Assembly (NCBI RefSeq): GCF_963676665.1
Contig: NZ_OY781378.1
Location: forward strand, 434,001 to 498,000
DNA length: 64,000 nt
Source: an uncultured Tolumonas sp.
GTDB taxonomy: Bacteria > Pseudomonadota > Gammaproteobacteria > Enterobacterales > Aeromonadaceae
Reading direction: 5' to 3'
Both the position numbers and the translations under genes were made by a program. Below the pieces are notes generated by a model that worked only from the letters and a program-made list of their open reading frames with translations, made no database searches and was not told the DNA's origin. Below, piece after piece: positions 6,134-53,731 of the stretch; within the stretch, counting starts at the first letter, position 1, and the number at the start of each line of letters is the position of its first letter.

Positions 6134-6351
6134 AATACCGCCAAAAATAGACAAATAAACGCTTTCCACTTGTGACTGTGGGAAACTAATAAATAAATTC
6201 CTGATTTACGGAATAGCGAAATATCTGAATATACGAATTCAGATGATAAATAATTAACTCAACATCGTTTATTCACTTCAGGAGTGTCATTTTTTTGGGG
6301 GGTGTTTTGCAGTTCCGCAATAACGCCATATGTAAGAGATACACAGACGCT

Positions 6352-6378
6352 ATTGCGAACGGACATACTGTTCGCATT
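6352..6378. promoter_or_regulatory. Inverted repeat, possible operator
   Basis: ATTGCGAAC (6352-6360) and GTTCGCATT (6370-6378) match as an inverted repeat in 8 of 9 positions with a 9-base spacer, so the half-site centres are about 18 bp apart. A related GCAATAACG/CGCTATTGC pairing lies just upstream. There is no T tract, so a terminator is unlikely. The binding protein is unknown. Confidence 0.3.
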
Positions 6379-6966
6379 GGGCTTCATCTTGGGTTCCTCG
6401 AGCTTTTCAAGGCAATTACACACCTGCTACCACTATCAGTACAGGCAAGTATTCGAATAATTCCATAACAGATATTATTCGGATGGCTGAATAATGAATG
6501 ATCTAAAATAAAGATCAATAGCTATTTTAATAGAAAATGATATTTAATAAGTAACTTTATGATTGTTATTGTAATTTATTTTATTTTTGTTTTCTCTAAA
6601 TTACATGAATCAAGTATAGGTGTTTTTTTATTCTCGTTGATTGTCATTAACTATTTTGGTGCATTAATTTTTATATTTTAAATTAATAGGGTTTTTGTTT
6701 ATTTTTGTTTGGCGAAAATAATACACGAGGCTTTTATTTTTTGATCTTGAACAGTATTTCGATGTGTTATTTTAAATTAAAAAATGAAGTTGTGTCGTTA
6801 ATGTGACAATTGATTTAATTTGGGTCATTTGTTTTATTATGGGTCACCATGATGAAGCGAAATAACAACGTTATTCTATTATTAGAATTATTTTAATTAG
6901 TTCCAAAAGAGTATTTTTGGTGAAAATTAGAACAATTTAATGATAATGAAAATCAATTGTTTAGCT

Positions 6967-6982
6967 TGTGATCGATATCAAA
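6967..6982 (+). promoter_or_regulatory. CRP-like site upstream of algD
   Basis: TGTGA-N6-TCAAA matches the CRP palindrome TGTGA-N6-TCACA at 9 of 10 conserved positions, about 157 bp before the algD start codon. It suggests that carbon status may influence the operon; no promoter elements were identified next to it. Confidence 0.4.
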
Positions 6983-7138
6983 AATGTTGCTGAATTGTTA
7001 ATTCGATTAAAAAGTGGTCAATTTTTTGCTCCAGATCAATTTGCGTAACCATAACTGTATTGGGAGTTGGTTGTTAACGGAAAGTTCACGGCGTTGATGC
7101 ATCCATGATGGATGACATAACTTGAAAAGGAGTGTTTC

Positions 7139-8449
7139 ATGCGTATCAGTATCTTTGGTATGGGTTATGTTGGCGCAGTTTGTACTGCCTGCCTTGCACA
7201 GCGTGGCCACCAGATCATCGGGGTCGATGTTTCCAAACATAAAGTTGAACTGATCAATGCCGGTCGCTCCCCGATTGTGGAGCCGGGATTGGATGAATTA
7301 CTAGCTGCAGGTAAAAACGCCGGCCGGATCCGGGCGACAAATGATTACACCGATGCCATCCAGAACAGTGACATTACTATGGTCTGTGTTCCGACACCGA
7401 GCAAACGTAATGGTGACCTGAGTCTGGAATATATTGAGGCCGTTTGCCGTGAAATTGGCCTGGCCATGCGGGATAAACCTTCCCGGCATACGGTGATCAT
7501 CCGCAGCACTGTCTTGCCGGGCACGGTGAAAGGGGTTGTGTTACCGATACTGGAAGACTGCGCTCAGATGAAAGCCGGTGTGGATTTCGGCTTAGGGGTC
7601 AACCCGGAATTTTTACGGGAAAGTACGGCACTTCGCGATTATGACGAACCACCGATGACCGTCGTAGGTGTGCTGGATGACGAAACGGGTCGTTTGATGG
7701 AGTTACTTTACAGTGACTTGCATGCACCGTTTATCTGCAAACCGATTGAAATCGCCGAGATGGTGAAATACACCTGCAATGTGTGGCACGCGGTAAAAGT
7801 CAGTTTTGCCAATGAAATTGGCAGTATTGCAAAAGAACTGCATGTGGATGGCCGTGAGGTCATGGATGTAGTATGCCGCGACAATAAACTCAATATTTCC
7901 AGTTATTACATGAAACCCGGCTTTGCGTTTGGTGGTTCGTGCCTGCCAAAAGACGTACGGGCGCTCAATTACCGCGCATCCCAATTGGATGTGCAAACTC
8001 CGCTCATTTCCTCGTTAATGCACAGTAACGAAAATCAGGTGAAACGTGCGTTTCAGATGATTGAGTCACTGAACAAACGCAAGATCGGCATGTTGGGCTT
8101 AAGCTTCAAAGCTGAAACGGACGATCTGCGTGAAAGCCCGCTGGTGGAACTGGCCGAGATGCTGATCGGCAAGGGGTATCAGCTTTCCATCTATGACCGC
8201 AACGTAAAATTTGCCAGTGTGCACGGTGCCAACCGTGATTACATCAATGGCAAGATCCCCCATGTCTCTTCTTTGTTGGCGGAAGACGAATCGGAGCTGC
8301 TCGATAATGTCGATGTGCTGATCGTTGGCAATAAAGATAAGGCATTTCAAGCCATGCTGGAGTCGTGGCCAGAGGACAAATATCTGGTCGATTTGGCCGG
8401 TTTTATGACGAACACCTCGGTCGTTAATAAACAGGGTATTTGCTGGTAA
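7139..8449 (+). CDS. algD: GDP-mannose 6-dehydrogenase
   Basis: 436 residues, the same length as Pseudomonas AlgD. It oxidises GDP-mannose to GDP-mannuronate with two NAD+, the committed step of alginate synthesis. The N-terminal Rossmann motif (GMGYVGAVCTACLA) and the catalytic cysteine in GGSCLPKD at residue 268 are intact, at the position known for AlgD. AAGGAG lies 7 bases before the ATG. It is the first gene of the alginate operon and is separated from alg8 by 161 bases containing a large hairpin, unlike the tight spacing downstream. Confidence 0.97.
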   Translation: MRISIFGMGYVGAVCTACLAQRGHQIIGVDVSKHKVELINAGRSPIVEPGLDELLAAGKNAGRIRATNDYTDAIQNSDITMVCVPTPSKRNGDLSLEYIEAVCREIGLAMRDKPSRHTVIIRSTVLPGTVKGVVLPILEDCAQMKAGVDFGLGVNPEFLRESTALRDYDEPPMTVVGVLDDETGRLMELLYSDLHAPFICKPIEIAEMVKYTCNVWHAVKVSFANEIGSIAKELHVDGREVMDVVCRDNKLNISSYYMKPGFAFGGSCLPKDVRALNYRASQLDVQTPLISSLMHSNENQVKRAFQMIESLNKRKIGMLGLSFKAETDDLRESPLVELAEMLIGKGYQLSIYDRNVKFASVHGANRDYINGKIPHVSSLLAEDESELLDNVDVLIVGNKDKAFQAMLESWPEDKYLVDLAGFMTNTSVVNKQGICW

Positions 8450-8493
8450 CCATACGATCAGCAGTCTGAGGTTCTGACTGTCTGCTCATCACT

Positions 8494-8568
8494 GATCGCA
8501 ATACTTTTGCCCCATGTGGTTATGGGTTGGGTGGCTTTTTCCCGACGCAGGGCAGAAGTGTTGCGATC
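8494..8568 (+). promoter_or_regulatory. Large intercistronic hairpin between algD and alg8
   Basis: A 19-base inverted repeat (8494-8512 with 8550-8568) pairs along its whole length with only two G-U wobbles and encloses a 37-base loop. The stem ends 42 bases before the alg8 start codon. A smaller hairpin (CAGTC 8462-8466 with GACTG 8476-8480) lies upstream. There is no T tract, so it is not an ordinary terminator. It may protect or process the mRNA, or control translation of alg8. Confidence 0.6.
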
Positions 8569-8610
8569 CCCTGAATATTCATGCCGGGACAGGCTGAAAA
8601 GGGGTGAGTT

Positions 8611-10083
8611 ATGCAATGGATGCAAACTACGACAGGCTGGTTATTGCTGGGATGCTTGCTTTGCTCGTTGGCATTGTTGGTGCCACCAGAAGTGTTTTCC
8701 GCCGGGCACCCCGAATTTTTGCTGGTGGTCGGTGGCATCGGGCTATGGCGTTATAGCGTGGGTTTAATGCATTACCTGCGCGGGCTGTTTTTTTGTTATG
8801 TCGTGTTTCCCCGCCATCGCAAGCAAGCGGCTGCGGCTGTGCTGGCACAGCCACCTTCACATATCTATTTGATGGTAACCAGTTTTCGCATTGATGCGAT
8901 GACTACTGCCATGGTCTATCGCTCGGTGATCAGTGAGGCCATTCATTGTGGTTATCCGGCTACGGTAGTGGCGTCGATTGTTGAGCTGTCGGATGAATCA
9001 CTGATCCACACCTTGTGGCAACAAGCTGCACCGCCGGATGATCGCGTTACATTACGTTTTGTGCGCATTCCCGGCACTGGCAAACGCGATGGTCTGGCGA
9101 ATGGTTTTCGGGCCATTGCGCGGGATATGCCGGATGCACAGGCGCTGGTTGCGGTGGTAGATGGCGATACGGTGTTGTCGGACGGCATTATTCGGCAGTC
9201 ATGTCCTTATTTTTCTTTGTTTCCCAATGTTGGCGCGCTGACGACCAATGAGTATTGCGATGTGCTTGGTAGTTACTGGATGAGTCAGTGGCACAAGCTG
9301 CGCTTTGCCCAACGGCATATCAGTATGTGCTCTATGGCATTGTCAAAACGGGTATTAACCCTGACCGGGCGTATGTCTTTGTTCCGCGCCAGTGTAGTGA
9401 CTGAGCCGGAGTTCATCTCAGATGTGGAGAACGATCATCTGGATCACTGGCGGCTGGGGCGCTTCAAATTCCTGACCGGCGATGACAAATCGAGCTGGTT
9501 TAGCATGATGCGTCAGGGCTGGGATACCTATTATGTGCCTGATGCGGAAATCACTACGGTAGAACACCCACCATCAAAAAGTTTTATAGCTGCGGCTCGT
9601 CAGCTGATGTTTCGCTGGTATGGCAATTCATTACGACAAAATTCACGGGCCACCCGGCTTGGTATCAAACGTCTGGGCTGGTTTACCTATTACGTGTTGT
9701 TTGATCAACGCATCTCGATGTGGACCAGTGTTTTGGGGCTGACGGCTGCGGTGTTGGCCGGTTTCAAATATGACATTGGTTATCCGGTGATCTATCTGTT
9801 GTGGATCGCGCTGACCCGTACACTGGTGTCACTGATGCTGCTGGCTTCCGGCCACAAAGTGGGGCCGGGTTTTCCGCTGATGCTCTATTTCAACCAAATC
9901 TTTGGCTCGCTGATCAAAATCTACGTGGTGTTTCGCCTGGATCGCCAATCGTGGACACGTCAAAACACCAAACTGAAACACGATCATGGTGCGTTTCAAA
10001 CCTGGTTTAACCGCTGGTCCACGACTGCCATGACGTTTTCGGCGGTCAGTGTATTTATGGCGGTGGTAGTTCATCTGGTTTAG
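8611..10083 (+). CDS. alg8: Alginate polymerase, glycosyltransferase family 2 membrane subunit
   Basis: 490 residues (Pseudomonas Alg8 is 494). Inner-membrane processive GT2 that joins mannuronate units from GDP-mannuronate. Two N-terminal membrane segments (about 8-27 and 33-67) precede the cytoplasmic GT2 domain, with a DGD motif in [10 protein letters not shown] and the acceptor/processivity motif QLMFRW (QxxRW-like). Several C-terminal membrane segments follow (about 365-490). It works with Alg44. The ATG at 8611 has GGGGTGAG just upstream; an in-frame ATG is 9 bases further on. Confidence 0.95.
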
Positions 10084-10147
10084 TCCGGCCAATCGGCTTT
10101 TTAAGCCAATGACAGGATGACATTGAGGCTGCATAGGAAGGGGATGA

Positions 10148-11344
10148 ATGATGGCGACTGCAAATTTAAATCTGGTTCATGAGACCGAAGCACAACGACG
10201 CCACGCACGGGTGAAAATTCCAGCCCGGTTGATCGTGACTGATCCGCAACATAATCAATATGTCCTGGAGTTGAATGAGATTTCAGCCAGTGGTTTCAGT
10301 GTAATGAATGAAGATGCCCGTTTGCATGTTGATCAGGTCTATCGGGGACGTCTGTTATTTAACTTTGATGCCGTGGAATTTGTGCTGAAGGTAAATTTCA
10401 AGGTGATTCACCAATGGGCAGATGAACATCGGTTTGGCTGTGAATTTCAGGATCTGGGCACACAGGAGATATCCACCTTACGTTTGTTAATCAGCAAGTT
10501 TCTTGGCGGGGAAATTGCGCAGGTCAATGATGTATTAACGACCTTAAGTCGGGAAAATTTCACTAAAGCGCGAAAAGTAGTCAACACCAGCGCCGGGCTG
10601 ACGGGTTGGGCGAAAACCAAGGCCTTGTTGGCAACGGCACTCATGTTTGTGGTGGGGCTGGGTGCATTTGCTTATTTGCTCAGCACACTGGCGAGCCATT
10701 ATCTGGTTACCGCTGCACGCAGTGCATCAGTGACTTTGCCACAACAAGCGGTGTTGATGCCCAAAGAAGGTAATGTTGAATTATTGGTCAAGGTAGGCGC
10801 TACGGTTAAGGCGGGTATGCCGGTGGCAAGAGTGCAAGCGCCGTGGGCAGAACAGGTCACCACATTATTAAAAGCCAGTGCGACACCCGATCCGAAATTG
10901 CTGTCGTTATTGCAAACCCAGATGGATTACACCTTACCCAGCCCCTGTGATTGTGTGGTGCTGAGCACTGGTGTGACCAACGGCCAGTTTTTGGAACGGG
11001 GAAAACCGGTTGTGCAACTGGTGCCGCCACAGAGCCAGCCTTATGTGCAAGCGAATTTCGATTATGCCGATTATGCCAAGCTGACCGCCGGACGTAAGGT
11101 CGTGCTGACTTTACCGGATGGTTTGCCAGAAGTCAGCGGCACTATTTCTCAGGTACAGATGACCGACGTAATACCAACTCCGGCATTAGGCGCGGTGATG
11201 GTGCAGATCAAACCGGATCGAGCCTTACCAGCGAGCACAGTGAGTTCACCGGTGGCGGTTTCTGTCGCTCCTATTTGGTTTGATCGGCTGCGGATGGCCG
11301 TCGTGATGCAGGCGAAAAAGTTCACTCAACCTGAGGCTGGTTAA
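10148..11344 (+). CDS. alg44: Alginate co-polymerase with c-di-GMP-binding PilZ domain
   Basis: 398 residues. The N-terminal PilZ domain carries RxxxR at residues 17-21 (RHARV context) and NEISASG (NxSxxG) near 43-49, both needed for c-di-GMP binding. A membrane segment lies at about 158-182, and the rest is a periplasmic membrane-fusion (HlyD/biotinyl-lipoyl like) domain. It activates Alg8 in response to c-di-GMP and links the inner membrane to the periplasmic complex. Tandem ATGs occur at the start (10148 and 10151). It is spaced 64 bases from alg8 and 2 bases from algK. Confidence 0.95.
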   Translation: MMATANLNLVHETEAQRRHARVKIPARLIVTDPQHNQYVLELNEISASGFSVMNEDARLHVDQVYRGRLLFNFDAVEFVLKVNFKVIHQWADEHRFGCEFQDLGTQEISTLRLLISKFLGGEIAQVNDVLTTLSRENFTKARKVVNTSAGLTGWAKTKALLATALMFVVGLGAFAYLLSTLASHYLVTAARSASVTLPQQAVLMPKEGNVELLVKVGATVKAGMPVARVQAPWAEQVTTLLKASATPDPKLLSLLQTQMDYTLPSPCDCVVLSTGVTNGQFLERGKPVVQLVPPQSQPYVQANFDYADYAKLTAGRKVVLTLPDGLPEVSGTISQVQMTDVIPTPALGAVMVQIKPDRALPASTVSSPVAVSVAPIWFDRLRMAVVMQAKKFTQPEAG

Positions 11345-11346
11345 TC

Positions 11347-12810
11347 ATGAAACGGAACGTTTTGATGATGGCGCTCATGGGCTTTGGTTTATCGGCTTGC
11401 CAAAGCTATACCGCGCAAATGCAACCGCAGCAGCATAGCCGAATTAAGATTTCACCGACGCAACAATGGTCTGCCTTACAGGATGTGGGGTATGACGGTG
11501 TTAAACCGGAGAAGGTCACTGATTATCTGCTGCTGGGGAAAAATGCTCAGCAGCGGGAGCAGGCCAGACTGCTGTTAAAAGCACAGTTACAGCATGATCC
11601 GAGTGGTGAAAAAGAGCTGCTTTATATCGCTAATTTAATGCAGGTCATCGAACTGGAACCGGGCTGGGCGGATGAGATCCGTAACACGCTCTGGGCACGG
11701 CAACAACGCCGGGGTGATGTGATGTATGAACTCATTACTTTTTATGCCCGCTATCCACAACAGCCCGGTTATTCCGATTTACGCCAGCTGGTTTCGCAAT
11801 CGGATAAACAACTGGCGCCCAATCAACGCAGCTGGTTATGGGCAATGGTGCGGTTGCCAGACATGCTGAAAACACAAACGACCGCGGCTGAACTGCGCAG
11901 CATGTGTCAGCAAATTTCATTTAATACGCCGGCGTTTGGTTATGTGCAGCCATCTGATCTGCAATTGTGTCGCCGGGCGCAGCTGATGTTATTGCGCCAA
12001 AACGGCGGTAATGATTGGCCGGAACTGTATACGGCAATCAGCGCCGAACTCAAAGGCCGACGGTTGCTGGACAGTGACTTGTTACCTCTGATGCAGATAC
12101 TGCAAAGTTCAGATGCAGGCGCGCCGATGAATGAACAAGCACTGGCATTAGGCCGGTTGGCTCAACCGCAAAATCACGATGTCGCGTTGGCGGTTATCGC
12201 GTTATTGCTTAGCCAACCTGGCGATGAAACTGAAACCAAGCACTTAGAGCAACAATTGCTGCAATTACAGCAACAAGGTGATCCGCAAGCATCCTATTTG
12301 CTGGGGCGACTCTATCTGGAAGGGCGACGCAAAGCGGCTGATCCGGTGCTAGCGGAAAAGATGCTGAAAGCTGCCGCCGATCTGCCGGAAGCCAATTATT
12401 TATTGGGGCGTCTATATCTAAGTGGCCTGCTAACGGGAACACCACAAATCCAGCAAGGCGTCGATTTGCTGGTACAAGCAGCTCGCCAAGGGTATGTCAG
12501 AGCTGATGAGGCTTTAGCGATAGCTTTTCATAACACACCTGGTGTGAAGGCCAACCCGGTCTATGCCTGGGTGTTTACCTCATTGGCTCAGCAAAAACTG
12601 AATAGCCCGTCATTACAACAATTACGTTCGTCGTTGGTGTTAGATAAACAGCATCAACAACAAGCCCATGAGTTGCTAACACAAGAACTGAGAGCTCGTA
12701 ATGTCGACGGTATGCCGTTATCAATTGCACCGCAATTAGCCTTGGAGGGGGAAAGAACCAACACTGAAGAGCAGAAAAGAAATGATTCAGAGCTGGTGAA
12801 TAATTTCTGA
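11347..12810 (+). CDS. algK: Alginate outer-membrane lipoprotein with TPR/Sel1 repeats
   Basis: 487 residues with a signal peptide and lipobox LSAC (Cys18), followed by helical TPR/Sel1-like repeats; the clearest are two ASYLLGRLYLEG/ANYLLGRLYLSG units near residues 315-360. In Pseudomonas AlgK (475 residues) anchors the periplasmic complex at the outer membrane and localises the AlgE porin. Here no algE follows: the next gene, algG, starts 47 bases on. The protein is Gln-rich in its second half. Confidence 0.9.
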   Translation: MKRNVLMMALMGFGLSACQSYTAQMQPQQHSRIKISPTQQWSALQDVGYDGVKPEKVTDYLLLGKNAQQREQARLLLKAQLQHDPSGEKELLYIANLMQVIELEPGWADEIRNTLWARQQRRGDVMYELITFYARYPQQPGYSDLRQLVSQSDKQLAPNQRSWLWAMVRLPDMLKTQTTAAELRSMCQQISFNTPAFGYVQPSDLQLCRRAQLMLLRQNGGNDWPELYTAISAELKGRRLLDSDLLPLMQILQSSDAGAPMNEQALALGRLAQPQNHDVALAVIALLLSQPGDETETKHLEQQLLQLQQQGDPQASYLLGRLYLEGRRKAADPVLAEKMLKAAADLPEANYLLGRLYLSGLLTGTPQIQQGVDLLVQAARQGYVRADEALAIAFHNTPGVKANPVYAWVFTSLAQQKLNSPSLQQLRSSLVLDKQHQQQAHELLTQELRARNVDGMPLSIAPQLALEGERTNTEEQKRNDSELVNNF

Positions 12811-12857
12811 GTTGTCTGCCGATCCCTATACCGAAGTTCAGCATCAAGGAGCAGATA

Positions 12858-14435
12858 ATGAACAAAATTGTGATAGTCGGTCTTCTCGCGTGCGGGCTCA
12901 TGTTTACGCAATTGGCGCAGGCAGAGTTTTATACTGTGCAAACTGTTTCTACACAGGCTGTCGATCCGGCGTTACCTGCCTTGCCGGATATTAGTGGTTA
13001 TAACCGCAATGCCATTTTACAAAAACAGGCTAAATGGCAGAAACCCGCCCATATTACCTTCGAACGCATGATCAACAATGTGGCGACCCGGAAGTTTTTT
13101 AAGGGTGGCAAACTAGGCATGTGGGCGCAAAAACAAGGCCAATTTCCCAAAGCGATCTACGTTCGTGATGGAATTCTGACGTTACCGGCTTTGCACAAAA
13201 TCATGCCGGATGCGTTGGTTAAATTGAATAAACAGCAGTATTTGCTGCGTTTTCCCACCGTGGTAATGAATCATGCGGCATTCGCGATTGCACCGGGGGA
13301 AGAGTTATTGCTTTCTCATGAACGGGGCAGTTTTCTGGTTAATGCGGGTGATGTGTTTATTGTCGATGGCGCTTTACGTGGCTGGAGCGAGAAAACCAAC
13401 TCTCCGGCCAAATTTAACGGTAAAAAAGAGGAGTACCGGCCATTTTATATTGGCTGGAGTGGCTCAGAGACCTATGCCTATGGTTCGTTAATTGAGAGCC
13501 TCGGTTCACTGAATAGTAAGGCGTATGGTTTTACGCTGTCGACCTATTCAGAACAAGATGAGATGTATGCTCCGCTGACCCTTAACCGGTTGCAACATCC
13601 CCGTGGCTGGTTGGTGAACAATCGGGTAACCGATATGTTTTATGGCTTCTACTCTTATGAAGCCAATGATGTGGTGCTGGTTGGTAATAAATATTACGAC
13701 AACATTTATTACGGCATCGATCCGCATGATCGCTCTCACCATCTGATTATTGCTAATAATGAGGTGTGGGGCACTAAAGTTCGCCATGGCATTATCGGTT
13801 CGCGTGATGTCAGCGGCTCGTTCATTTTTGGCAATGTGTCACACGATAACAATCAAGCCGGCATCATGCTTGATCGCGCCAGTAACCATAACGTTGTTAT
13901 GCAAAACAGCAGTTATAACAATGGGAGTGATGGGCTGGCGGTATATGAAAGCCATCATAATCTGATCGCGGATAACCGTTTTTATAATAACCAGCATCAC
14001 GGTATCCGCTTTCGCAACAGCCTTGATGTGACCCTCAAAGACAACCTCATTCTGCAAAATGGCCATTACGGAATTTATGGCTATTTAAGCGATCTTTCAG
14101 CACACGCTCCGTTACCCGGTCATGAAGCTCGCGATCTGAAACTTGATCCGTATGAGATGCGCGGCTCTGGTTCTATCAGTGGTGGTGTCATTGCGTTAAA
14201 TGGCAGTGGCGCACTGTTTACCACCGGTTTAGAAGCCGTAGAAATTGGCAAATTAGCCTTAGATGAAAATGGTAAACGTCGTGAAATTACCTTGGGTGGC
14301 GATTTAGTTCCTTATACCGATGTGATTACTACCGTCTGGTATGGCGATGTCAACGAAGTGTTGTTCAGCCGCGCCGTCTCAACGAAACGCCCGAACGCGC
14401 GTAATCCTGTTTCACTGGAGGTGGCCAATGACTAA
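12858..14435 (+). CDS. algG: Periplasmic poly(beta-D-mannuronate) C5-epimerase
   Basis: 525 residues (Pseudomonas 543) with a signal peptide ending at about residue 22. It converts mannuronate to guluronate in the nascent polymer. The second half is a right-handed beta-helix with many N-rich turns. The catalytic motif YGIDPHD is present with the His at residue 290. A Pseudomonas-type C-terminal region with an LPGH turn follows. The stop overlaps the algX start by 8 bases, implying translational coupling. Confidence 0.96.
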   Translation: MNKIVIVGLLACGLMFTQLAQAEFYTVQTVSTQAVDPALPALPDISGYNRNAILQKQAKWQKPAHITFERMINNVATRKFFKGGKLGMWAQKQGQFPKAIYVRDGILTLPALHKIMPDALVKLNKQQYLLRFPTVVMNHAAFAIAPGEELLLSHERGSFLVNAGDVFIVDGALRGWSEKTNSPAKFNGKKEEYRPFYIGWSGSETYAYGSLIESLGSLNSKAYGFTLSTYSEQDEMYAPLTLNRLQHPRGWLVNNRVTDMFYGFYSYEANDVVLVGNKYYDNIYYGIDPHDRSHHLIIANNEVWGTKVRHGIIGSRDVSGSFIFGNVSHDNNQAGIMLDRASNHNVVMQNSSYNNGSDGLAVYESHHNLIADNRFYNNQHHGIRFRNSLDVTLKDNLILQNGHYGIYGYLSDLSAHAPLPGHEARDLKLDPYEMRGSGSISGGVIALNGSGALFTTGLEAVEIGKLALDENGKRREITLGGDLVPYTDVITTVWYGDVNEVLFSRAVSTKRPNARNPVSLEVAND

Positions 14436-15804
14436 GTTCGCACCCATTTTTAGTGTTCTGACATTTCTATTGAGTGTCACTGGCGCTGGTGTGTCACAGG
14501 CAGCGGATAATGGTTTACCTAAATATGCCGCTGAACCTTGTTGTCAGTTGTGCCCGGAAGCACAAAAAACATCGGCCGAAGTGGGGCTGAAGGAAGGCAG
14601 TGCCGGTTGGTTGTTTGCAGCTACCGAACGGGCTAGCAATGCCGAGCCATTAACCACCCCAGAACGCGCTTTTTTGCTCAAATTACTGGTGCAGGAGTTA
14701 GCGCAAAAAGGCACCACGGTAATGCTGGTTATGCCGCCATCACGGACGTTGATGTATGCGGATCATCAGCTGAGTAAGGGAACCGCTGCTGAAACGACGA
14801 AAGAATATCTACAGACTTTGCGCTTTTTTCGTCAGGCCGGTTTTTTAGTGCCCGCGTATGAGCGTTTGCAGCCAACAGTGTCGGGATCAGCAGAGCCGTT
14901 TTTCTTCAAACGTGACATTCACTGGACGTCCTCTGGCGCGAAACAAACCGCTCAATTGGCGGCCGCGGATATTCGCAAATTAGCGTTGTTTGAACAGCAA
15001 CCAGAACAACGTTTTGAAACCACGGCGCAGGGTGTGCTGAAAATCAGTGGGCTTCTGAATAATCAATCGCAGGCGTTGTGTGGCGGCCAGCGTTATCCAT
15101 TGGAGTTTACGCCGCATTTTGTGACCAAAGCGGTTGATGTGGCAACAACGACGTCTGTTGATGACATCTGGCTGATCGGTTCCAGTCAATCGGTGGAGAA
15201 TCGTTTTAATTTCAATGGTTTTTTACAGCAGAGCCTATCGCGAAAGGTCAGTAATTATACGCCCGATGACGGCAACAGTAGTGTCGGATGGGCAAAATTA
15301 CTGGCATCGGAGGCTTTCCAAACTAAACCGCCGAAACTGATTTTATGGGAACTGCCGTATGAACATCGCAAACTCAGTGCGTCGCTATTACGGCAAATGA
15401 TTGCGTTAGTGAATAACGGTTGCGAGTCTTATCCGACGCTGGAACAGAAAGCGCAGGTCTTTCAGGGGAACAAACTGAATGATGTGATATTCGGTGCCAA
15501 CCTGCTGAAGACGCATCCCAGCCAGTTGATCTTTGATTTGAAATTAAGCGATCCATCCATCGAACAATTACTGCTAACTGTCTGGTATTCCGACGGTGGG
15601 AAAAGTGATTTTCAGATCAGAAAAAACAGTCAACTCGCTGACAGCGGACGTTTTAGTTTTGTGCTGGGTAATGTCGAGATGAAGCAGCCACGTTTTTTTG
15701 TTTCCCTTGATTTAGCCCTGCCTAGCGCTGCGCGTGGAAAAACCACCATCAACGCCAGTGTTTGTCATTTCCCCGATAACTTGTTACAGACCGCAGGGAG
15801 ATGA
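14428..15804 (+). CDS. algX: Alginate biosynthesis protein AlgX (SGNH acetyltransferase-like)
   Basis: 458 residues from ATG 14428 (GGAGG upstream); signal peptide to about residue 28. The N-terminal SGNH-hydrolase-like domain keeps all three catalytic residues by position: DIH (Asp163, His165) and the nucleophile in IGSSQS (Ser253). A C-terminal carbohydrate-binding domain follows. In Pseudomonas AlgX O-acetylates mannuronate and needs AlgI, AlgJ and AlgF to supply acetyl groups; none of these genes is in this window. AlgX also has a structural role with AlgK and MucD-type partners, which may explain its retention. Confidence 0.92.
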   Translation: MTKFAPIFSVLTFLLSVTGAGVSQAADNGLPKYAAEPCCQLCPEAQKTSAEVGLKEGSAGWLFAATERASNAEPLTTPERAFLLKLLVQELAQKGTTVMLVMPPSRTLMYADHQLSKGTAAETTKEYLQTLRFFRQAGFLVPAYERLQPTVSGSAEPFFFKRDIHWTSSGAKQTAQLAAADIRKLALFEQQPEQRFETTAQGVLKISGLLNNQSQALCGGQRYPLEFTPHFVTKAVDVATTTSVDDIWLIGSSQSVENRFNFNGFLQQSLSRKVSNYTPDDGNSSVGWAKLLASEAFQTKPPKLILWELPYEHRKLSASLLRQMIALVNNGCESYPTLEQKAQVFQGNKLNDVIFGANLLKTHPSQLIFDLKLSDPSIEQLLLTVWYSDGGKSDFQIRKNSQLADSGRFSFVLGNVEMKQPRFFVSLDLALPSAARGKTTINASVCHFPDNLLQTAGR

Positions 15805-15806
15805 AG

Positions 15807-16934
15807 ATGAAAATGGCTCGCAGTTATTCACTGATTTCTCTGACGGGTTTTCTCTTGGCTGGTCTCTTTGCTTGTGTTGGGGCTGCGCCGGCTAACGCGG
15901 TATTACAGGCGCCGGTGGGTTATCTGCAAGGCCATCTGACTATTCGCGTATCAGAGCATGCTACTGATTGCCCACCGTTGAATGTCTATCAGGACGGGTT
16001 GGAGATCCCCAGTAAATATGTGCAGTCGGAGAAGTCGAAAGATGTGATCGACGATGACAACGAAGCACGGTATGCCGCGTTGTCAGCACCGATGTCTGAT
16101 TTACAGCAATTATCGGCTGCGTTGACCGACAAGTTATTCAAAGGCAACGGCACTGAGCAGGATCTGCAATGTTTGCGTCAACACTGGCTGGCGTGGGCCA
16201 ATGCCGGAGCGCTGCTGCAACCGACTAAGTCTGCGGTGGGAAAGGCCATTCGGAAATGGACGCTGGGAGCTATTGCTGCCAACTATCTGAAAATAAAGCT
16301 GAACCTGCCAGAGGATGATCCCACTTTTCCGAAAGTGGAACGTCAGACGTTGGAACGCTGGTTGGGGTTAGTCGCCGGTGAAGTAGTAAAAGATTACAGC
16401 CACCGCAAACCAGAGCAGATCAACAATCACGATTACTGGGCTGCTTGGGGGGTGATGACGACCGCGGTCGTACTGAATCGTGCCGATCTGTTCAATTGGT
16501 CTGGCGAGATTTATCTCAACGCGATGGCGCAAGTTAATGCCGACGGCGAGTTGCCCAATGAATTGAAACGTCGCAGTCGGGCGCTGAGTTATCACAACTT
16601 TGCTTTGCAACCACTGGTATTACTGGCCGCCTTTGGTGAAGCCAATGGTCAACACTGGTTGAGTGCTGATAATGCAGCATTACAACGTCTGGCGGCACTT
16701 GTGATCCACAATCTGGATGATAGCAGTGCACTGGCGCAGGCAGCAGGGGCTAAACAAGTCAAAGAAAGTCTGCGTGAACATGGGCGGCTTGCCTGGCTGG
16801 CACCTTACATCGCTATCTCGGGTAACCGGGAGTGGTTACCGTTACTTAAATCGTTATCAACACTGAAAATGACCCGCTTGGGTGGCGATCTTAGTTACCT
16901 CTATTTGCGCAACGAGCCTGGATTTACGCAATGA
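15807..16934 (+). CDS. algL: Periplasmic alginate lyase, polysaccharide lyase family 5
   Basis: 375 residues from the ATG at 15807, which is 7 bases after GGGAG; in-frame ATGs at 15801 (overlapping the algX stop as ATGA) and 15813 are alternatives. Signal peptide to about residue 30, then an (alpha/alpha) barrel PL5 domain with INNHDYWA and ELKRRSRALSYHNFAL, the segments holding the catalytic Asn/His/Arg/Tyr. It clears alginate stranded in the periplasm. The last codons lie in a tandem 19-bp repeat, so the C-terminus may have been reshaped by repeat expansion. Confidence 0.94.
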   Translation: MKMARSYSLISLTGFLLAGLFACVGAAPANAVLQAPVGYLQGHLTIRVSEHATDCPPLNVYQDGLEIPSKYVQSEKSKDVIDDDNEARYAALSAPMSDLQQLSAALTDKLFKGNGTEQDLQCLRQHWLAWANAGALLQPTKSAVGKAIRKWTLGAIAANYLKIKLNLPEDDPTFPKVERQTLERWLGLVAGEVVKDYSHRKPEQINNHDYWAAWGVMTTAVVLNRADLFNWSGEIYLNAMAQVNADGELPNELKRRSRALSYHNFALQPLVLLAAFGEANGQHWLSADNAALQRLAALVIHNLDDSSALAQAAGAKQVKESLREHGRLAWLAPYIAISGNREWLPLLKSLSTLKMTRLGGDLSYLYLRNEPGFTQ

Positions 16935-16959
16935 ATCAGGATTTGCGCAATGAGCCAGG
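16903..16959 (+). repeat. Three tandem imperfect 19-bp repeats across the algL stop codon
   Basis: Units at 16903-16921, 16922-16940 and 16941-16959, with the form ATTTRCGCAAYGARYCWGG. Because 19 is not a multiple of three, each copy shifts the frame; the algL stop (TGA 16932-16934) lies within the second unit. Copy-number change would alter the AlgL C-terminus and the spacing to algA. Confidence 0.8.
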
Positions 16960-17034
16960 GCTGGCTGATAAACAAGCCCGTGTAGTCATAGGGACGATGT
17001 CCTTAAACAGCATGAGCAGCATGGAGCAACAATC

Positions 17035-18504
17035 ATGATCCCAGTCATTCTCTCCGGTGGTAGTGGTTCACGTCTTTGGCCGCTTTCCCGTAAGCAATAT
17101 CCAAAGCAGTTCCTGAACTTATTAGGTGACCACACGCTGTTACAGCAAACAGTCATGCGGTTGCCGGAAAAACAGTTCGGCAAACCATTTTTGGTTTGTA
17201 ATCAGCTGCACCGTTTTATTGTGCGGGAGCAGATGCAACAAATCAGCCGTTCGACACATAGCGTGTTGCTGGAACCGTTCGGGCGTAATACGGCACCGGC
17301 GGTGGCCTTATCCGCCATGTTGATCACTGAGGACGATGGTGACGACTTGATGCTGGTATTACCGGCAGACCATGTGATCCGTGATTTAGCGGCGTTTCAT
17401 GCTGCCTTAGAGCGCGGGCGTGCGGAGGCGGAGGCCGGCAAACTGGTGTTATTCGGCATTGTGCCGACCGCGCCGGAAACGGGTTATGGCTATGTGAAAA
17501 GTCATTCAGTGAATGGGTTGGAAGCGGTGCCAGTAGAGCGGTTTGTTGAAAAACCCGATCGGGCGACCGCGATCAGTTTTCTCGCCAGCGGTGACTATTT
17601 CTGGAACAGCGGCATGTTCATGTTTAAAGCCAGCCGCTTCCTGCAAGAGTTGAAAAAATTCCAACCGGATATTTATGACATTTGTCAGTTGTCGTTAGAG
17701 CGCAAATTCCGCGATCTCGACTTCTGGCGCATTGATCCCGATAGTTTTGCATTCTGCCCCGATGATTCTATCGATTACGCCATCATGGAAAAAACCGATG
17801 ATGCCGTGGTCGTGCCTTTGCAGGCCGGGTGGAGCGATGTCGGTAGCTGGTCGGCCTTGTGGGAAGAACAAGACAAAGATCCGCAATCCAATCTGGTGAA
17901 AGGTGCTGCCGAACTGATCGAAACCGATCACTGTTATGTACACACCACCCATCGCATGGTCAGTCTGATCGGCATGCAAGATACCGTGGTCATTGAGACC
18001 AAAGATGCCGTGCTGGTGGCAAATATTAATAAAGTGCAAGACGTCAAACAGCTGGTGAAAAAACTGGAACAAGAGGATCGCCCGGAAGCACAGCATCATC
18101 GGGAAATGTTCCGGCCATGGGGCTCTATGGATGCGATTGATAAAGGACAACGTTTTGGGGTGCAGCACCTGACGATTCAGCCGCAACAAAGCATCTCGCT
18201 GCATCGCCATTTGCATCGCTCTGAACATTGGGTGGTGGTGTCGGGGTGCGCGCAGGCCACCATCGGGGAAGAAACCATTTTGATGGGGGAAAACCAATCT
18301 ACCTATATCCCTGCCGGAGTCTTCCACCGACTCAGTAACCCCGGCCAGGTACCGCTGGAGATCATCGAGATCCAGACCGGCAGTTATCTGCAGGATAAAG
18401 ATATCGAGCGGGTGGCAGACATGTATGGCCGCGTTAATGAGCGGGATTCGACGCCAGCGCAAAACTGGCCGATGGCACAGGGAGTGCGCATCGTTCCGCA
18501 TTAG
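17035..18504 (+). CDS. algA: Bifunctional mannose-1-phosphate guanylyltransferase / mannose-6-phosphate isomerase
   Basis: 489 residues. The N-terminal nucleotidyltransferase domain has the GGSGSRLWPLSRKQYPKQF signature and the FVEKP active-site segment. The C-terminal cupin type II isomerase domain has HLHRSEHWVVVSG. It converts fructose-6-P to mannose-6-P and mannose-1-P to GDP-mannose. GGAGC precedes the ATG by 7 bases. A separate type I isomerase (manA) two genes downstream makes the isomerase activity redundant. Confidence 0.95.
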   Translation: MIPVILSGGSGSRLWPLSRKQYPKQFLNLLGDHTLLQQTVMRLPEKQFGKPFLVCNQLHRFIVREQMQQISRSTHSVLLEPFGRNTAPAVALSAMLITEDDGDDLMLVLPADHVIRDLAAFHAALERGRAEAEAGKLVLFGIVPTAPETGYGYVKSHSVNGLEAVPVERFVEKPDRATAISFLASGDYFWNSGMFMFKASRFLQELKKFQPDIYDICQLSLERKFRDLDFWRIDPDSFAFCPDDSIDYAIMEKTDDAVVVPLQAGWSDVGSWSALWEEQDKDPQSNLVKGAAELIETDHCYVHTTHRMVSLIGMQDTVVIETKDAVLVANINKVQDVKQLVKKLEQEDRPEAQHHREMFRPWGSMDAIDKGQRFGVQHLTIQPQQSISLHRHLHRSEHWVVVSGCAQATIGEETILMGENQSTYIPAGVFHRLSNPGQVPLEIIEIQTGSYLQDKDIERVADMYGRVNERDSTPAQNWPMAQGVRIVPH

Positions 18505-18588
18505 CCATGAGCTGACAGAATGCCAATGCAGAGCGCCTTCTGTCAGTACTTTGTTGCAACAGGATCGTTGATAGCAGAGGACAGCAAT

Positions 18589-19962
18589 ATGGGATCATTT
18601 AATTGCTTTAAAGCCTACGATATTCGTGGCCGGTTGGGTGACGAACTGGACGAGGATGTTGCCTATCGTATCGGGCGTGCTTATGCCCGTTATCTGAACG
18701 CGCGTGCCATTGTAGTGGGCGGTGATGTGCGTCTTTCCAGTGAAGGACTAAAACAAACGCTGGTTCAAGGGTTACGCGACAGCGGTGCCGATGTTATCGA
18801 TTTAGGCATGACCGGCACCGAAGAGATCTATTTTGCCACCTGGTTTTTGGGCGTCGATGGCGGCATTGAAGTGACTGCGTCACATAACCCCATCGACTAT
18901 AACGGCATGAAACTGGTGCGCAGCGGCAGTCGGCCCATAAGTGGTGACACTGGCTTGAATGAGATCCGCCGGATGGCTGAAATGATCGATTATGGCCCAC
19001 AAGCGGGTATTCCCGGGCTGTATCGTCAGGAAAATATCCTGTCGGCCTATGTTGATCACTTGATGGGTTATATCGATTTCAGCAAATTAACGCCGAAAAA
19101 GCTGGTGGTGAATGCAGGTAATGGCGCGGCTGGCCATGTGATCAATGCCATTGAAAAGGTGTTTATCAGCCAACGGGTGCCGGTGCAATTGATCAAGATC
19201 CACAATGAGCCGGACGGCACATTCCCGCATGGCATTCCTAACCCGTTATTGCCGGAAAATCGCGCTGACACTGCCAATGCTGTGCATGCTTACGGTGCTG
19301 ATATGGGCATCGCGTGGGATGGTGATTTCGATCGTTGTTTCCTGTTTGATCAACACGGTGAATTTATCGAAGGCTATTACATCGTTGGTTTGCTGGCGGA
19401 AAGTTTTCTGCTGAAGAAACCCGGTGCCCGCATTATTTACGATCCGCGTCTGACGTGGAACACCGAAGAGATCGTCACCAAAACCGGTGGTGTACCGGTG
19501 ATGTCGAAAACCGGTCATGCCTTTATCAAAGAACGCATGCGTGCTGAAGATGCGGTGTATGGCGGCGAGATGAGTGCCCATCACTATTTCCGCGATTTTG
19601 GTTATTGCGACAGCGGCATGATCCCGTGGTTACTGGTGTTGGAGCTGTTGTGCGTCCGCAAACAACCGCTGTCGACGCTGGTGGCGGAACGCATTGCCCG
19701 TTACCCATCACCCGGTGAAATCAACAGCCACCTCAGCGACCCGCAGCAAGCGATCCAGCGCGTGTTAGATGCATACAGCGGGCAGGCGCTGAACATCGAT
19801 TACACCGATGGCATCAGTCTGTCTTTCGATGATTGGCGTTTTAATCTGCGCAGCTCGAATACCGAACCGGTGGTGCGACTGAATGTTGAGTCGCGTGCGG
19901 ATGAAGTGTTGATGCAACAAAAGACAGCGGAAATTTTATCGCTGTTACGCCAGGAGGGCTAA
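18589..19962 (+). CDS. cpsG: Phosphomannomutase (CpsG/ManB type)
   Basis: 457 residues from ATG 18589, preceded by AGAGG; the frame extends to 18520 without a ribosome site. It interconverts mannose-6-P and mannose-1-P. The phosphoserine loop VTASHNP, the metal-binding DGDFDR and the sugar-binding [10 protein letters not shown] are intact. Start (CFKAYDIRG) and overall sequence are closer to enterobacterial CpsG than to Pseudomonas AlgC, although it fills the AlgC step in this operon. Four bases separate it from manA. Confidence 0.92.
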
Positions 19963-19965
19963 ATC

Positions 19966-21240
19966 ATGAAAATGATGGAAGAGACATTTCAGGCCGCATG
20001 GCAAGCCATTGGCGGAGAAATGCTGCAACAGCCATTGTGGCTGATTAATAGTCTGCAACCTTATGATTGGGGCACTACCGATGTGTTGCCGTGGTTGCTC
20101 GGTATTGAAAATCCGCAACAACAACCACAGGCAGAAGTGTGGGTCGGTGCCCATCCGAAAGCGCCGTCACAGGTGGTGTTCCCCGATGCGCAATTTTCAC
20201 TGGAGCAACTGATCGACGGGCAACCACATGCCATTCTCGGAGCGCGCGCGATCCAGCGCTTCGGACCAAAATTACCTTTTTTATTCAAAATCTTGTCGGC
20301 CAAAAAAGCCTTGTCTATTCAGGTTCATCCTGATTTGGCACAGGCACAAGCGGGTTTTGCCCACGAAAATGCAATTGGTATTCCGCTCACGGCAGCAGAG
20401 CGAAATTACCATGACGCCAATCATAAGCCGGAGCTGTTATACGCGCTGACGCCGTTTGTCGGTTTGGTTGGGTTCCGGCCCATTTCTGAGATCGTGCGGT
20501 TGTTAGTGTTAGTCGGTGAACATCAGCTGCTGACTTGGGCGAAACGACTGCAAAAAGAGGGGGAAACGGCACTGGCAGCTTTTTATAGCTGGTTATTGTT
20601 GTTGTCGGGCAAAGAGCTGGATCATCTGCTTTCTGCTGCTGGCCCCAGCCTGCAATTTCAACATGAACCGGCTTTTGCTGAAGTGCAGCGGTTAGCACAG
20701 GAACATCCGGGAGATAGCGGGATTTTGTCTCCGTTAGTACTGAATCTGGTATCGCTGGTGCCAGGGGAAGCGATGTTCATTCCGGCCGGCACACCGCACG
20801 CTTATCTGCGCGGAACGGGCGTTGAGGTCATGGCCAGCTCCGACAATGTGCTGCGGGCTGGGTTAACGCAAAAACATATCGCACCGGATGAACTCTTATC
20901 GACGGTGATCTTTCGCAGTATGACGCCGGATATTATGCGTCAGCCGGCGAACAAACAGCCTATGAATCAAATAGAACAGCGGTTTCCCGTACCGGTGGAT
21001 GACTTTGAGCTCTCGATTATACGTCTGCAAAGTGGCGACACTTTTCCGGTCGGCTTGTTACCCGAGGTTGAACTGTTATTTTGCCTGAAAGGCACTATCA
21101 CGCTAACCAATGCACAAGGCGAACCGTGGACACTGACGCCCGCGTCCAGTGTGCTGTTACCGGCGGCCAGTCAGGGCTGGCAACTGAGCGGTCATGGCAA
21201 GGTCGCAAGGGTGCGCATTGGCCCGTCATTGATGCATTAA
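19966..21240 (+). CDS. manA: Mannose-6-phosphate isomerase, type I
   Basis: 424 residues. Zinc enzyme that interconverts fructose-6-P and mannose-6-P. Metal-ligand motifs are visible: LSIQVHPD (Gln, His), HKPELLYAL (Glu) and IPAGTPHAYLRG (His). A C-terminal cupin domain follows. The start has GGAGG upstream and lies 3 bases after the preceding stop, so it is in the same operon. Pseudomonas alginate clusters lack this gene because AlgA carries the activity, so here supply of mannose-6-P appears doubled. Confidence 0.93.
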   Translation: MKMMEETFQAAWQAIGGEMLQQPLWLINSLQPYDWGTTDVLPWLLGIENPQQQPQAEVWVGAHPKAPSQVVFPDAQFSLEQLIDGQPHAILGARAIQRFGPKLPFLFKILSAKKALSIQVHPDLAQAQAGFAHENAIGIPLTAAERNYHDANHKPELLYALTPFVGLVGFRPISEIVRLLVLVGEHQLLTWAKRLQKEGETALAAFYSWLLLLSGKELDHLLSAAGPSLQFQHEPAFAEVQRLAQEHPGDSGILSPLVLNLVSLVPGEAMFIPAGTPHAYLRGTGVEVMASSDNVLRAGLTQKHIAPDELLSTVIFRSMTPDIMRQPANKQPMNQIEQRFPVPVDDFELSIIRLQSGDTFPVGLLPEVELLFCLKGTITLTNAQGEPWTLTPASSVLLPAASQGWQLSGHGKVARVRIGPSLMH

Positions 21241-21303
21241 TTTTGTCTGTGCTGTACGCAAGGATGAGCGCGGCACTGACGATCTCCTCTGGAGGATAAC
21301 GTA

Positions 21304-22599
21304 ATGAAAATAGGAACTGTGATCACATTGTTACTGGCCGTTTGGCATTGGCCGGTATCTGCCGCGACGAGCTGCACGAGCGCTAATCTAAGGTTTGCCA
21401 GCTCCAGTAACACCTTGTATGTGCAGGCTGGCGGTATTTGCCGGATCGCTGATATTGCGGCATTGAAACCACTACAACTGGTGAGTCAGGGCGATGGTAT
21501 CTATCTGTTAAAGGCGAACCTCAAATTAACCGATGGTTCTGCGTTACTGATTGATGGCGATGATCCAACTGATCCCGTCATTGAATTTCGTCTGTTGTCT
21601 AACAACACCGGACTGGCCAATAGTGTCGTTAATCTGACCGCTGATTACGGCATTGTGCAAATTAACCATACCAAAGTGCTGTCGTGGGATGAAGCCGTGG
21701 AGGGGCCGGATACCGATTACACCACGGCTAATCGGGCCTACATTCGTGTGCGATCTGGTGCTGCTGATAAACAATCACGGATGGATGTCACCGGCAGTGA
21801 TATTGGTTATCTCGGTTATTATGCCTCGGAATCGTATGGCTTAACCTGGAAAGTGTCGGGCACACTGAATGACGTTCGTGTGTACGGCAATATTCTCAAT
21901 AGCCGTATCCACAATAACTATTTCGGGGTGTTCACTTACGGTGCTTACGGCATGATGATCAGCGGTAACGAGTTTGATCATAATGTGAAATATGGGCTGG
22001 ACCCGCATGATGATTCCGACTACCTGACTATCACGAGTAACACATCACACCATAACGGTGACCACGGCATTATTTGTTCGCAGCGTTGTAATAATCTGGT
22101 GATCCGTTATAACACCAGTTACAGCAACGCCGGTCATGGCATCATGTTGCATCGTTCGGTCGATTATTCGCTGGTGGAGAATAATCAAGTCTTTGATAAC
22201 GAAGATACCGGTATTGCGTTGTTTGAAAGTAACAACAATATTATTCGGGGCAATATTGTGCAGGGTAATAAAACCGGCATTCGACTCTCAGTCGGGTCAT
22301 CCTATAACAGTTTTCAGGGCAACATGATTTTCGGTAATACAGATAATGCTATCTATACCTATCAAGGATCCGATGAACCAGCTCGGGTCGGTAATGATGG
22401 CATCAATCGTGAGAATGTGTGGTCGCAAAACGATATAACGGCGACCGGTGCTTATATTCTTAAGCTGAGTGCTACAGATGGCGATACGTTCAGCGATAAT
22501 GATTTTACTGGCAATCCACTGGCTAAGTTTTATTTAAAAGGGGCAGTGAATACTACTTACAGCAATAACCTTTTAGATCCAGAAATGACTTTGCCGTGA
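21304..22599 (+). CDS. Second exported mannuronan C5-epimerase-like beta-helix protein
   Basis: 431 residues with a signal peptide (to about residue 20, WPVSAAT). The body is a right-handed parallel beta-helix (NosD/PbH1-type repeats, about 150-350). It keeps the motif YGLDPHDD with His235, matching YGIDPHD of AlgG and DPHE of Azotobacter AlgE epimerases, so epimerase activity is likely. It lacks the calcium-binding R modules of AlgE enzymes and the N-terminal region of AlgG. Its place as the last gene of the alginate operon fits a polymer-modifying role. It could instead be a carbohydrate-binding or lyase-like beta-helix protein. Confidence 0.75.
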   Translation: MKIGTVITLLLAVWHWPVSAATSCTSANLRFASSSNTLYVQAGGICRIADIAALKPLQLVSQGDGIYLLKANLKLTDGSALLIDGDDPTDPVIEFRLLSNNTGLANSVVNLTADYGIVQINHTKVLSWDEAVEGPDTDYTTANRAYIRVRSGAADKQSRMDVTGSDIGYLGYYASESYGLTWKVSGTLNDVRVYGNILNSRIHNNYFGVFTYGAYGMMISGNEFDHNVKYGLDPHDDSDYLTITSNTSHHNGDHGIICSQRCNNLVIRYNTSYSNAGHGIMLHRSVDYSLVENNQVFDNEDTGIALFESNNNIIRGNIVQGNKTGIRLSVGSSYNSFQGNMIFGNTDNAIYTYQGSDEPARVGNDGINRENVWSQNDITATGAYILKLSATDGDTFSDNDFTGNPLAKFYLKGAVNTTYSNNLLDPEMTLP

Positions 22600-22627
22600 G
22601 ATGCTATTCGCGAAAGTTTTCTCTTTT

Positions 22628-22653
22628 AACCCGGAATTTTTTTCGGGTTTTTT
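22628..22653 (+). terminator. Rho-independent terminator of the alginate operon
   Basis: AACCCG (22628-22633) pairs with CGGGTT (22644-22649) and is followed by a T run (22648-22653), 29 bases after the last stop codon. Confidence 0.75.
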
Positions 22654-22656
22654 AAA

Positions 22657-23676
22657 TTATTTGGTTCTGTGTTCATCTCTGAATGCTAAAGGGCTCACCG
22701 ATAGATTTGTTTTGAAAAAACGGCTAAAAACACTCTGTGATGAAAAGCCAATCGATTCACTAATCTCTTGCATGGTGTATTTTGATTCTATTAATAATTC
22801 ACAGGCCATTTTTATTTTTGTCTCTTTTAATAAGGTAATAAAAGAGGTGTTTTCGTTTTGCAACTTCCGATTAAGTGTCCATCTGCTGATGCTCAGATTA
22901 TTACAAATATCTTCCAATATTGAATCATCGCCATCAAATCGCCCTAAATGAATGGAATGGATTATCATCTCTTTGATTAACGAGGAATAATCGCTATCAC
23001 TCTCCAATTTGCGGCAGAGTTCATTTAGCCTTGTCTTTTGCATGGAGTTTAAGCTGCCGTTATAATCTTGCCGTGGTCTGTCTAATTCTTGATTATTAAA
23101 TACAATAGAGTTGTTATTTTGCTCCCATAAACATTGGGTATTGAAAAATACATCCAGTAAATGTTTTTTCTGGGGTGGTTTTCCAACGAATCTGACATTA
23201 ATATTGAAAGAGTTAGAGTAATTTTTGACGATGCTATATAACATAATGAAATTGAAAATAGCCTGCGAAGCACCAAGTTCTTTGGGTCCCAGATTAATAT
23301 ATTCGAAGCTGCTTTTTTCTACTCCTGCATGTTTAATTAAATCATCGCAGTTACCAATCATGATGCGGTATCTGATATACGAATCGAGTGCTTCTTTGGC
23401 GCTGCTTTCATTTAAACAAATACCAAAGAAATCAGGATGATTTTGGAATGATAACGCCATAAAATTATCAAAAATAAAATCATTAACTGGTTGTAAATAT
23501 TCTTTTGTTTTTAGCATAAAACGATAATGTTTATGTTCTGCTATACGTCCATTATCTCGTTCAATCTCATAATCAGATACGCCACAATATTCAATAATAG
23601 ATCTTGTGTTAACACCGTCGCCTTTTAATTTATGTAATACATTTCTCATGATGACATTTGAAACGCTTTTTGGCAT
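22657..23676 (-). CDS. AraC-family transcriptional regulator with Arabinose_bd-type N-terminal domain
   Basis: 339 residues from ATG 23676 (GGAG 6 bases upstream). The N-terminal two thirds resemble the PF12625-type domain of OruR/ArgR-like regulators. The C-terminal 100 residues contain two helix-turn-helix motifs (LEDICNNLSISRWTLNRKL and MQEISESIGFSSQSVFSRFFK). It is notably A+T-rich with Asn/Ser/Lys-rich codons, unlike the neighbouring alginate genes, which suggests recent acquisition. It converges on the alginate operon and is divergent from the GH3 gene, which is the most obvious target. Regulation of alginate is possible but not shown. Confidence 0.85.
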   Translation of the reverse strand: MPKSVSNVIMRNVLHKLKGDGVNTRSIIEYCGVSDYEIERDNGRIAEHKHYRFMLKTKEYLQPVNDFIFDNFMALSFQNHPDFFGICLNESSAKEALDSYIRYRIMIGNCDDLIKHAGVEKSSFEYINLGPKELGASQAIFNFIMLYSIVKNYSNSFNINVRFVGKPPQKKHLLDVFFNTQCLWEQNNNSIVFNNQELDRPRQDYNGSLNSMQKTRLNELCRKLESDSDYSSLIKEMIIHSIHLGRFDGDDSILEDICNNLSISRWTLNRKLQNENTSFITLLKETKIKMACELLIESKYTMQEISESIGFSSQSVFSRFFKTNLSVSPLAFRDEHRTK

Positions 23677-24046
23677 GGCAAACTCCAAAGGCTATAAGCT
23701 AATATTTTATCGATTTTAATAATGAGAGTGTGATTTTAAATTGTCTCTGTATTTTATTTGATAAAATATTTAGCTGTTATATGTTGCTCTGAAGTATAGA
23801 GGTGAGACTTAGTGATCGCTTGTAACAAAATGTAAACATTGTGGTGACTTCACATATTTAGCATCCTGCTCCATTTTGCAAAATTCATGCACCCAGCTGT
23901 CAATTATTTTAATAAATAACTCGTTACTTTATTCACCGAAGAAAAAGGTAGTTGTGCATTATTTATTTGCAAATGTTTTAAATGAGTATCGAGTTAATTC
24001 GATGCTAACGACATTAAAGCATGCTGAATCGATTAAAGGAATAAAT
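23677..24046. promoter_or_regulatory. Divergent intergenic region between AraC regulator and GH3 gene
   Basis: 370 AT-rich bases. Direct repeats TGTAAC (23821-23826) and TGTAAAC (23831-23837) are spaced by exactly 10 bp, the geometry expected for an AraC-type two-motif binding site. The in-frame extension of the GH3 gene into this region (from about 23876) has no ribosome site and looks non-coding. Confidence 0.35.
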
Positions 24047-53390: not shown

Positions 53391-53499
53391 GCTGTACTCC
53401 ATAAAATATTCTAACGGTTCATCATGAACCTTATTGAAACAACAGGATGATCAGTATGGGCGTCAATCGTTTGTAACAGAAACGGCATAACATGGCTTA

Positions 53500-53578: not shown

Positions 53579-53731
53579 AACAATCATATTTTAATATCGA
53601 AACGTTATTCTAGTAGCGAAACTGGGGTAAAACCAGTGACGGAACGGTTCAGTGGTGCTAGTTTTTGATGGTATCCGGTTGAGTTTACAGAAGCCATGAC
53701 TGATTTTTAATCTTTTTTCGAGGAGAACACT

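Follow-up and report, generated by a model that had tools for sequence, protein, structure and literature searches.

AlgK, a lipoprotein of the bacterial alginate machinery, is believed to position the porin AlgE and to assist in its opening. In the algD operon of Pseudomonas and Azotobacter, the genes for both proteins stand side by side, in the order algD-alg8-alg44-algK-algE-algG-algX-algL-algI-algJ-algF-algA (PMC3815931). Here, we describe an alginate operon that keeps this order but does not contain algE, algI, algJ, or algF. It lies on a contig of an uncultured Tolumonas sp. (NCBI RefSeq assembly GCF_963676665.1, contig NZ_OY781378.1, positions 434,001 to 498,000), and this whole stretch of 64,000 nucleotides is hereafter called the window. 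The 11-gene operon (algD-alg8-alg44-algK-algG-algX-algL-algA-cpsG-manA-epi2, window positions 7139-22599, plus strand), delimited from open reading frames (ORFs) and Pfam/NCBIfam families, also differs from the Pseudomonas/Azotobacter operon in having cpsG, manA, and a second epimerase gene (epi2) 3' of algA and a divergent PL7 lyase gene 5' of algD. AlgE is missing from the genomes of the genus that we searched, beyond the operon itself, while AlgK and AlgX have been kept.

Atypical alginate operons with lost outer-membrane or modification loci have already been reported (PMC7112194). However, the example given there is a loss of algKE, whereas Tolumonas keeps algK, and the main text of that paper does not name Tolumonas. 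A literature search on Tolumonas with alginate, exopolysaccharide, or algD returned nothing on this operon. The loss of such loci is therefore known in general, and the algE-less, algK-keeping variant of Tolumonas is new. Among named genomes, Pseudomonas taeanensis and Pseudomonas sp. CC6-YY-74 (loci L060 and L064) also have algL followed directly by algA, with no algI, algJ, or algF between them, but AlgE is present and each genome has two MBOAT genes elsewhere. The operons nearest in an Alg8 tree, those of Vibrio fluminensis and Alteromonas (L054, L055, and L056; Alg8 66-70% identical to that of Tolumonas), differ in having AlgE, AlgI, and AlgF matches, a second AlgX/J-type match, and AlgX at the end.

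Gene content of the operon

The features of the operon and its borders are as follows, with G000 denoting the window's genome and G001, G002, G003, G005, G006, and G008 genomes of the same genus.

5384-6169, minus strand: PL7 alginate lyase (PF08787, 167 bits), transcribed divergently to the operon; bounds the unit common with G008 on the left
7139-8449, plus strand: algD, GDP-mannose dehydrogenase (TIGR03026, above cut-off)
8611-10083, plus strand: alg8, GT2 polymerase (PF13641; 70% identity to a Vibrio fluminensis record)
10148-11344, plus strand: alg44, co-polymerase with PilZ and HlyD-like (HlyD_3) domains (PF07238, PF13437)
11347-12810, plus strand: algK, TPR/Sel1 lipoprotein (NF038194, residues 218-452; solved AlgK 7ula_B)
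12858-14435, plus strand: algG, mannuronan C5-epimerase (NF038177, 421 bits, under the cut-off of 700)
14341-15804, plus strand: algX (PF16822, PF16824; solved AlgX 7ula_A, 5.3e-48); true start probably near 14428, not at the upstream ORF start
15801-16934, plus strand: algL, PL5 alginate lyase (PF05426; NF001469, above cut-off)
17035-18504, plus strand: algA, bifunctional GMP/PMI (TIGR01479, above cut-off)
18520-19962, plus strand: cpsG-type phosphomannomutase in the algC role (NF011943, 764 bits, cut-off 801); true start probably near 18589 rather than at the ORF's 5' end
19966-21240, plus strand: manA, type I mannose-6-phosphate isomerase (PF20511)
21304-22599, plus strand: epi2, second AlgG-like epimerase (NF038177, 8.5e-33); right end of the unit common with G008
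22628-22649, plus strand: terminator-like stem of 9 pairs with a T run, 3' of epi2

The Pseudomonas-type synthase core is present (Alg8, the Alg44 PilZ co-polymerase, AlgG, AlgX, AlgL, and the lipoprotein AlgK), and the pathway to GDP-mannuronate is complete, with AlgA, phosphomannomutase, and AlgD all found by NCBIfam. AlgK matches NF038194 at 95 bits over residues 218-452, far under the cut-off of 700, and solved AlgK (7ula_B) at 5.3e-20 over residues 296-481, so that the C-terminal half is the recognizable part; its lipobox-like N-terminus is kept, and the AlgK of G008 is without the N-terminal repeats. The second epimerase aligns with solved AlgG (4nk6) at 8.8e-22, including the DPHD stretch. 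The first-pass annotation had considered cpsG and manA unusual for such an operon, which holds for their position but not for their kind, as both are precursor-pathway genes.

That annotation had also placed the missing algE between algK and algG in an otherwise Pseudomonas-like order, and the ORFs and families confirm it, the algK stop and the algG start being 47 bp apart. The widest gap within the operon (161 bp, algD-alg8) is too small for a barrel gene. In the 969-bp gap 5' of the operon, no hidden gene was found, all overlapping ORFs being of at most 77 amino acids.

Absence of AlgE and retention of the operon within the genus

AlgE was searched genome-wide in 11 genus genomes with a profile (A2) of 13 AlgE proteins of relatives, which matches solved Pseudomonas aeruginosa AlgE at 2.7e-173. 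None of the 11 genomes gave a match at E≤10. The same profile recovered AlgE in all five control genomes outside the alignment, at 2.2e-111 or better, Desulfobulbaceae included. The first-pass annotation was right that the operon does not account for the exit of the polymer. An assembly gap or artefact as the cause is ruled out by G003 and G008, both single contigs and both with the algE-less operon, so that better assemblies do not restore algE either.

Could a true AlgE be encoded elsewhere in these genomes, too diverged for the profiles used? Profiles can indeed miss distant members, since only 11 of the 13 rows of A2 match PF13372, even at E≤10. However, in all six relative pairs compared, AlgE has changed less than AlgK, and a profile of four relatives still detects Tolumonas AlgK at 163 and 177 bits. 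Together with the recovery of all five controls, this makes an overlooked AlgE quite unlikely.

Among 54 Alg8 loci of named genomes, A2 finds AlgE in 21, including all 16 non-Tolumonas loci with at least 59% Alg8 identity (L054-L068 and L070). The 33 loci without AlgE consist of two from Tolumonas (L052 and L053) and 31 distant ones (Alg8 identity ≤51%), several of which are clipped by contig ends. The Tolumonas records are the near-identical ones by Alg8, in agreement with the earlier view of an Aeromonadales-like host. The Alg8 tree (22 rows) places Tolumonas as a single AlgE-less clade (100/99) within a group (98/97) that also contains Vibrio fluminensis and two Alteromonas, both of these AlgE-bearing. 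One loss of AlgE would be the simplest history.

Alg8 was present in five of the 61 genomes of the relatives search, every one of them in the window's genus, and the system, recognized by its AlgX domain, is carried by 6 of the 11 genus genomes (of the five non-carriers, three are <90% complete). The same algE-less gene order was found in G001, G003, G006, G008, and the window, that is, in all five genus genomes compared. The description as a distinct variant of the alginate system is thus borne out, with the qualification that this arrangement is the normal one within the genus and that such losses had been reported more generally (PMC7112194).

The carriers hold the operon at two chromosomal locations. 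G002 and G005, which have no Alg8 match, have an amylase gene, nifH, and nifD immediately after tpx, and the nif locus of G008 is arranged in the same way. In the window, ~21.2 kb (roughly 5298-26520) lies between tpx and the amylase gene; besides the PL7 lyase gene and the operon, it holds genes of the AraC type and of family GH3. In G008, the PL7 lyase gene and the operon are at another site, with homology to window positions 5398-22601 that ends 63 bp from a tRNA-Met gene; the PL7 lyase there is 69.9% identical and has the same position relative to algD. From the comparison of the two sites, the shared unit is therefore the PL7 lyase plus the 11 genes, and no porin accompanies it at either site. 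The AraC-type regulator and the GH3 enzyme (22657-26458) are in the 21-kb insert of the window's clade, outside the unit shared with G008. Although nifHDK is a close neighbor of the operon in the window and in G003 and G006, a functional tie to nitrogen fixation is unsupported: 9 of the 11 genus genomes have nifD, G002 and G005 among them, and the nif and alg genes of G008 are ~0.8 Mb apart in coordinates.

Several noncoding features were observed in the window. A stretch between the PL7 lyase gene and algD (6270-6480) is conserved with G003 and G006 and also with G008, itself a diverged genome. Its predicted fold has 48 pairs, three of them changed on both sides, with a covariation term of 0; it had no Rfam family at the gathering threshold and no match in plasmids or phages. 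The stretch is possibly a regulatory RNA or a leader. Terminator-like sites across the region number 23 against 20.1 expected from shuffles, so there is no excess. Rfam identifies a TPP riboswitch (70.8 bits) at 53490-53581, minus strand.

Selection on the operon and fate of the acetylation genes

All 11 genes are open in G000, G003, and G008. Between G000 and G003, omega is 0.004-0.128 for the 11 genes; synonymous sites in comparison with G008 are at or near saturation. Purifying selection thus seems to act on each of the 11 genes. One might suspect that the operon is decaying or dead from the loss of algE and of algI, algJ, and algF, and from the AlgX of G008, in which the His of the DxH motif is replaced by Asn, but the open frames and low omega values are hard to reconcile with decay, and we give this explanation hardly any credence.

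AlgK and AlgX are the least conserved products between G000 and G008 (51% and 57% identity, respectively). In AlgE-bearing pairs at a like Alg8 distance, AlgK identity is 61% (L058-L070), 52% (L061-L063), and 48% (L055-L056). It does not appear that AlgK and AlgX evolved under relaxed constraint after the loss of AlgE, as their rate is no faster than in AlgE-bearing pairs. In Pseudomonas putida, the N-terminus of AlgX is reported to dock on AlgK (PMC9734138); all 8 rows of our alignment retain the N-terminal AlgX stretch AEPCCQLCP.

The absence of algI, algJ, and algF from the operon was likewise upheld. No MBOAT protein (AlgI) was found in any of the 11 genus genomes, compared with five of five relatives with alginate operons. 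Each of the six carriers has one AlgX/J-type domain and therefore no AlgJ. For algF, there was none among the operon ORFs and the small AlgF model had no match in L052 or L053, no genome-wide AlgF search having been made. Since neither AlgI nor AlgJ was found, the polymer is probably not O-acetylated. The DxH and Ser motifs of AlgX, which we take to be the catalytic residues, guided by alignment to solved AlgX, are kept in seven of eight rows (two of which are probably one contig), the exception being G008.

Candidate routes of export

The first-pass annotation had suggested a genome search for PF13372 (AlgE-family) barrels. In the window's genome, this gave two matches under the cut-off, namely a 396-amino-acid porin beside atpC (L002) and a near-copy on another contig. 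Scored as a whole protein, the porin reaches 31.3 bits against a cut-off of 25.2, with its best stretch at model positions 4-131, and by this measure is a distant PF13372 member. Against A2, it scores 1.8 bits (E 4.6), and A2 has no match genome-wide at E≤10. The porin is full length in four of the six carriers and was found in none of the five other genus genomes, three of them incomplete, a distribution that would fit an exporter. However, there is none in G008 and only an 80-residue remnant in G006, and because both genomes keep the full operon without an intact copy, the porin is not generally required. The search thus did uncover a distant family member, but as a general exporter it is rejected, and with its low score against the AlgE profile, we regard it as highly improbable that this porin is the exporter.

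The window's genome has two near-identical atpC-porin-cheB-like regions, one on contig C6 (L002) and one on contig C15 (L001/L035/L036), and the porin copy on C15 is broken in frame. Either the region has been duplicated, or a contig from a related strain has strayed into the assembly (contamination of G000 is given as 3.35%).

Six distant alphaproteobacterial loci (L072, L076, L078, L079, L081, and L097; Alg8 46-50% identical) resemble Tolumonas in having no AlgE by profile but differ in having a barrel of another family at the locus. This BBP2_2-like barrel, partial in L076 and Pfam-confirmed in L078 and L081, is divergent from alg8 and adjoins a weak AlgK match in L076, L081, and L097. From this arrangement, a replaced alginate pore is possible at these loci, which would be a precedent for such a swap. 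The distant operons L037/L038 (G257) and L039/L040 (G095) combine AlgE-like barrels with long Sel1-type lipoproteins and encode one additional secreted protein next to alg8.

We consider the chances about even that the operon encodes a working alginate synthase whose unacetylated, epimerized product exits via an unlinked, non-AlgE barrel docked on AlgK-AlgX; that AlgK-AlgX work with a beta-barrel from a family without a known alginate role in this export is a step that we hold tentatively. According to this proposal, an ancestor in the Tolumonas lineage would have lost AlgE and the acetylation genes. Enzyme activities being inferred here from gene families, fructose-6-phosphate would be converted to GDP-mannuronate via ManA/AlgA, CpsG, AlgA, and AlgD, which Alg8-Alg44 would polymerize, with c-di-GMP as the probable control. 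The conversion of mannuronate to guluronate would fall to AlgG and, probably, to the second epimerase. AlgX would be retained mainly as the partner of AlgK, and AlgK-AlgX at the outer membrane would hand the chain to the putative barrel encoded elsewhere, while AlgL would clear stray periplasmic chains and the PL7 lyase would trim or release the polymer.

Several observations weigh against this proposal. The porin beside atpC is not preserved in G008 and G006, as described above. BBP2_2 gave weak partial matches in 6 of the 11 genus genomes, none above the cut-off and none in G008. No candidate exporter barrel was found in searches that covered PF13372, A2, and BBP2_2 but not KdgM, OprD, OprB, BcsC, or Wza. 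In addition, loss of algE in Pseudomonas stops polymer release and yields fragments, as does disruption of algK, algX, or algG in releasing fragments (PMC3815931).

These fragments favor another explanation, namely that there is no dedicated exporter: the periplasmic polymer would be cut by AlgL, and perhaps by the PL7 lyase, and (i) the oligouronates would exit through general porins or (ii) a short periplasmic polyanion would itself be the product. AlgL is reported to clear periplasmic alginate (PMC8829089), the PL7 lyase beside the operon is retained in G008 too, and the A2 and BBP2_2 searches returned no exporter, all of which would be expected in this case. On the other hand, AlgK, AlgX, and two epimerases would be superfluous, yet they are under purifying selection, and the divergence of AlgK and AlgX is no faster than in AlgE-bearing pairs. 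Release as oligomers, or retention in the periplasm, is the main alternative, which we regard as possible but less likely than not.

By dropping AlgE while keeping AlgK and AlgX under selection, the Tolumonas lineage separates the two naturally. The case would show whether the TPR scaffold can work with a different pore or acts in its own right. If the proposed substitute barrel is real, the pore of synthase-dependent secretion would be swappable while the TPR scaffold stays. Tolumonas may also be a source of unacetylated, epimerized bacterial alginate.

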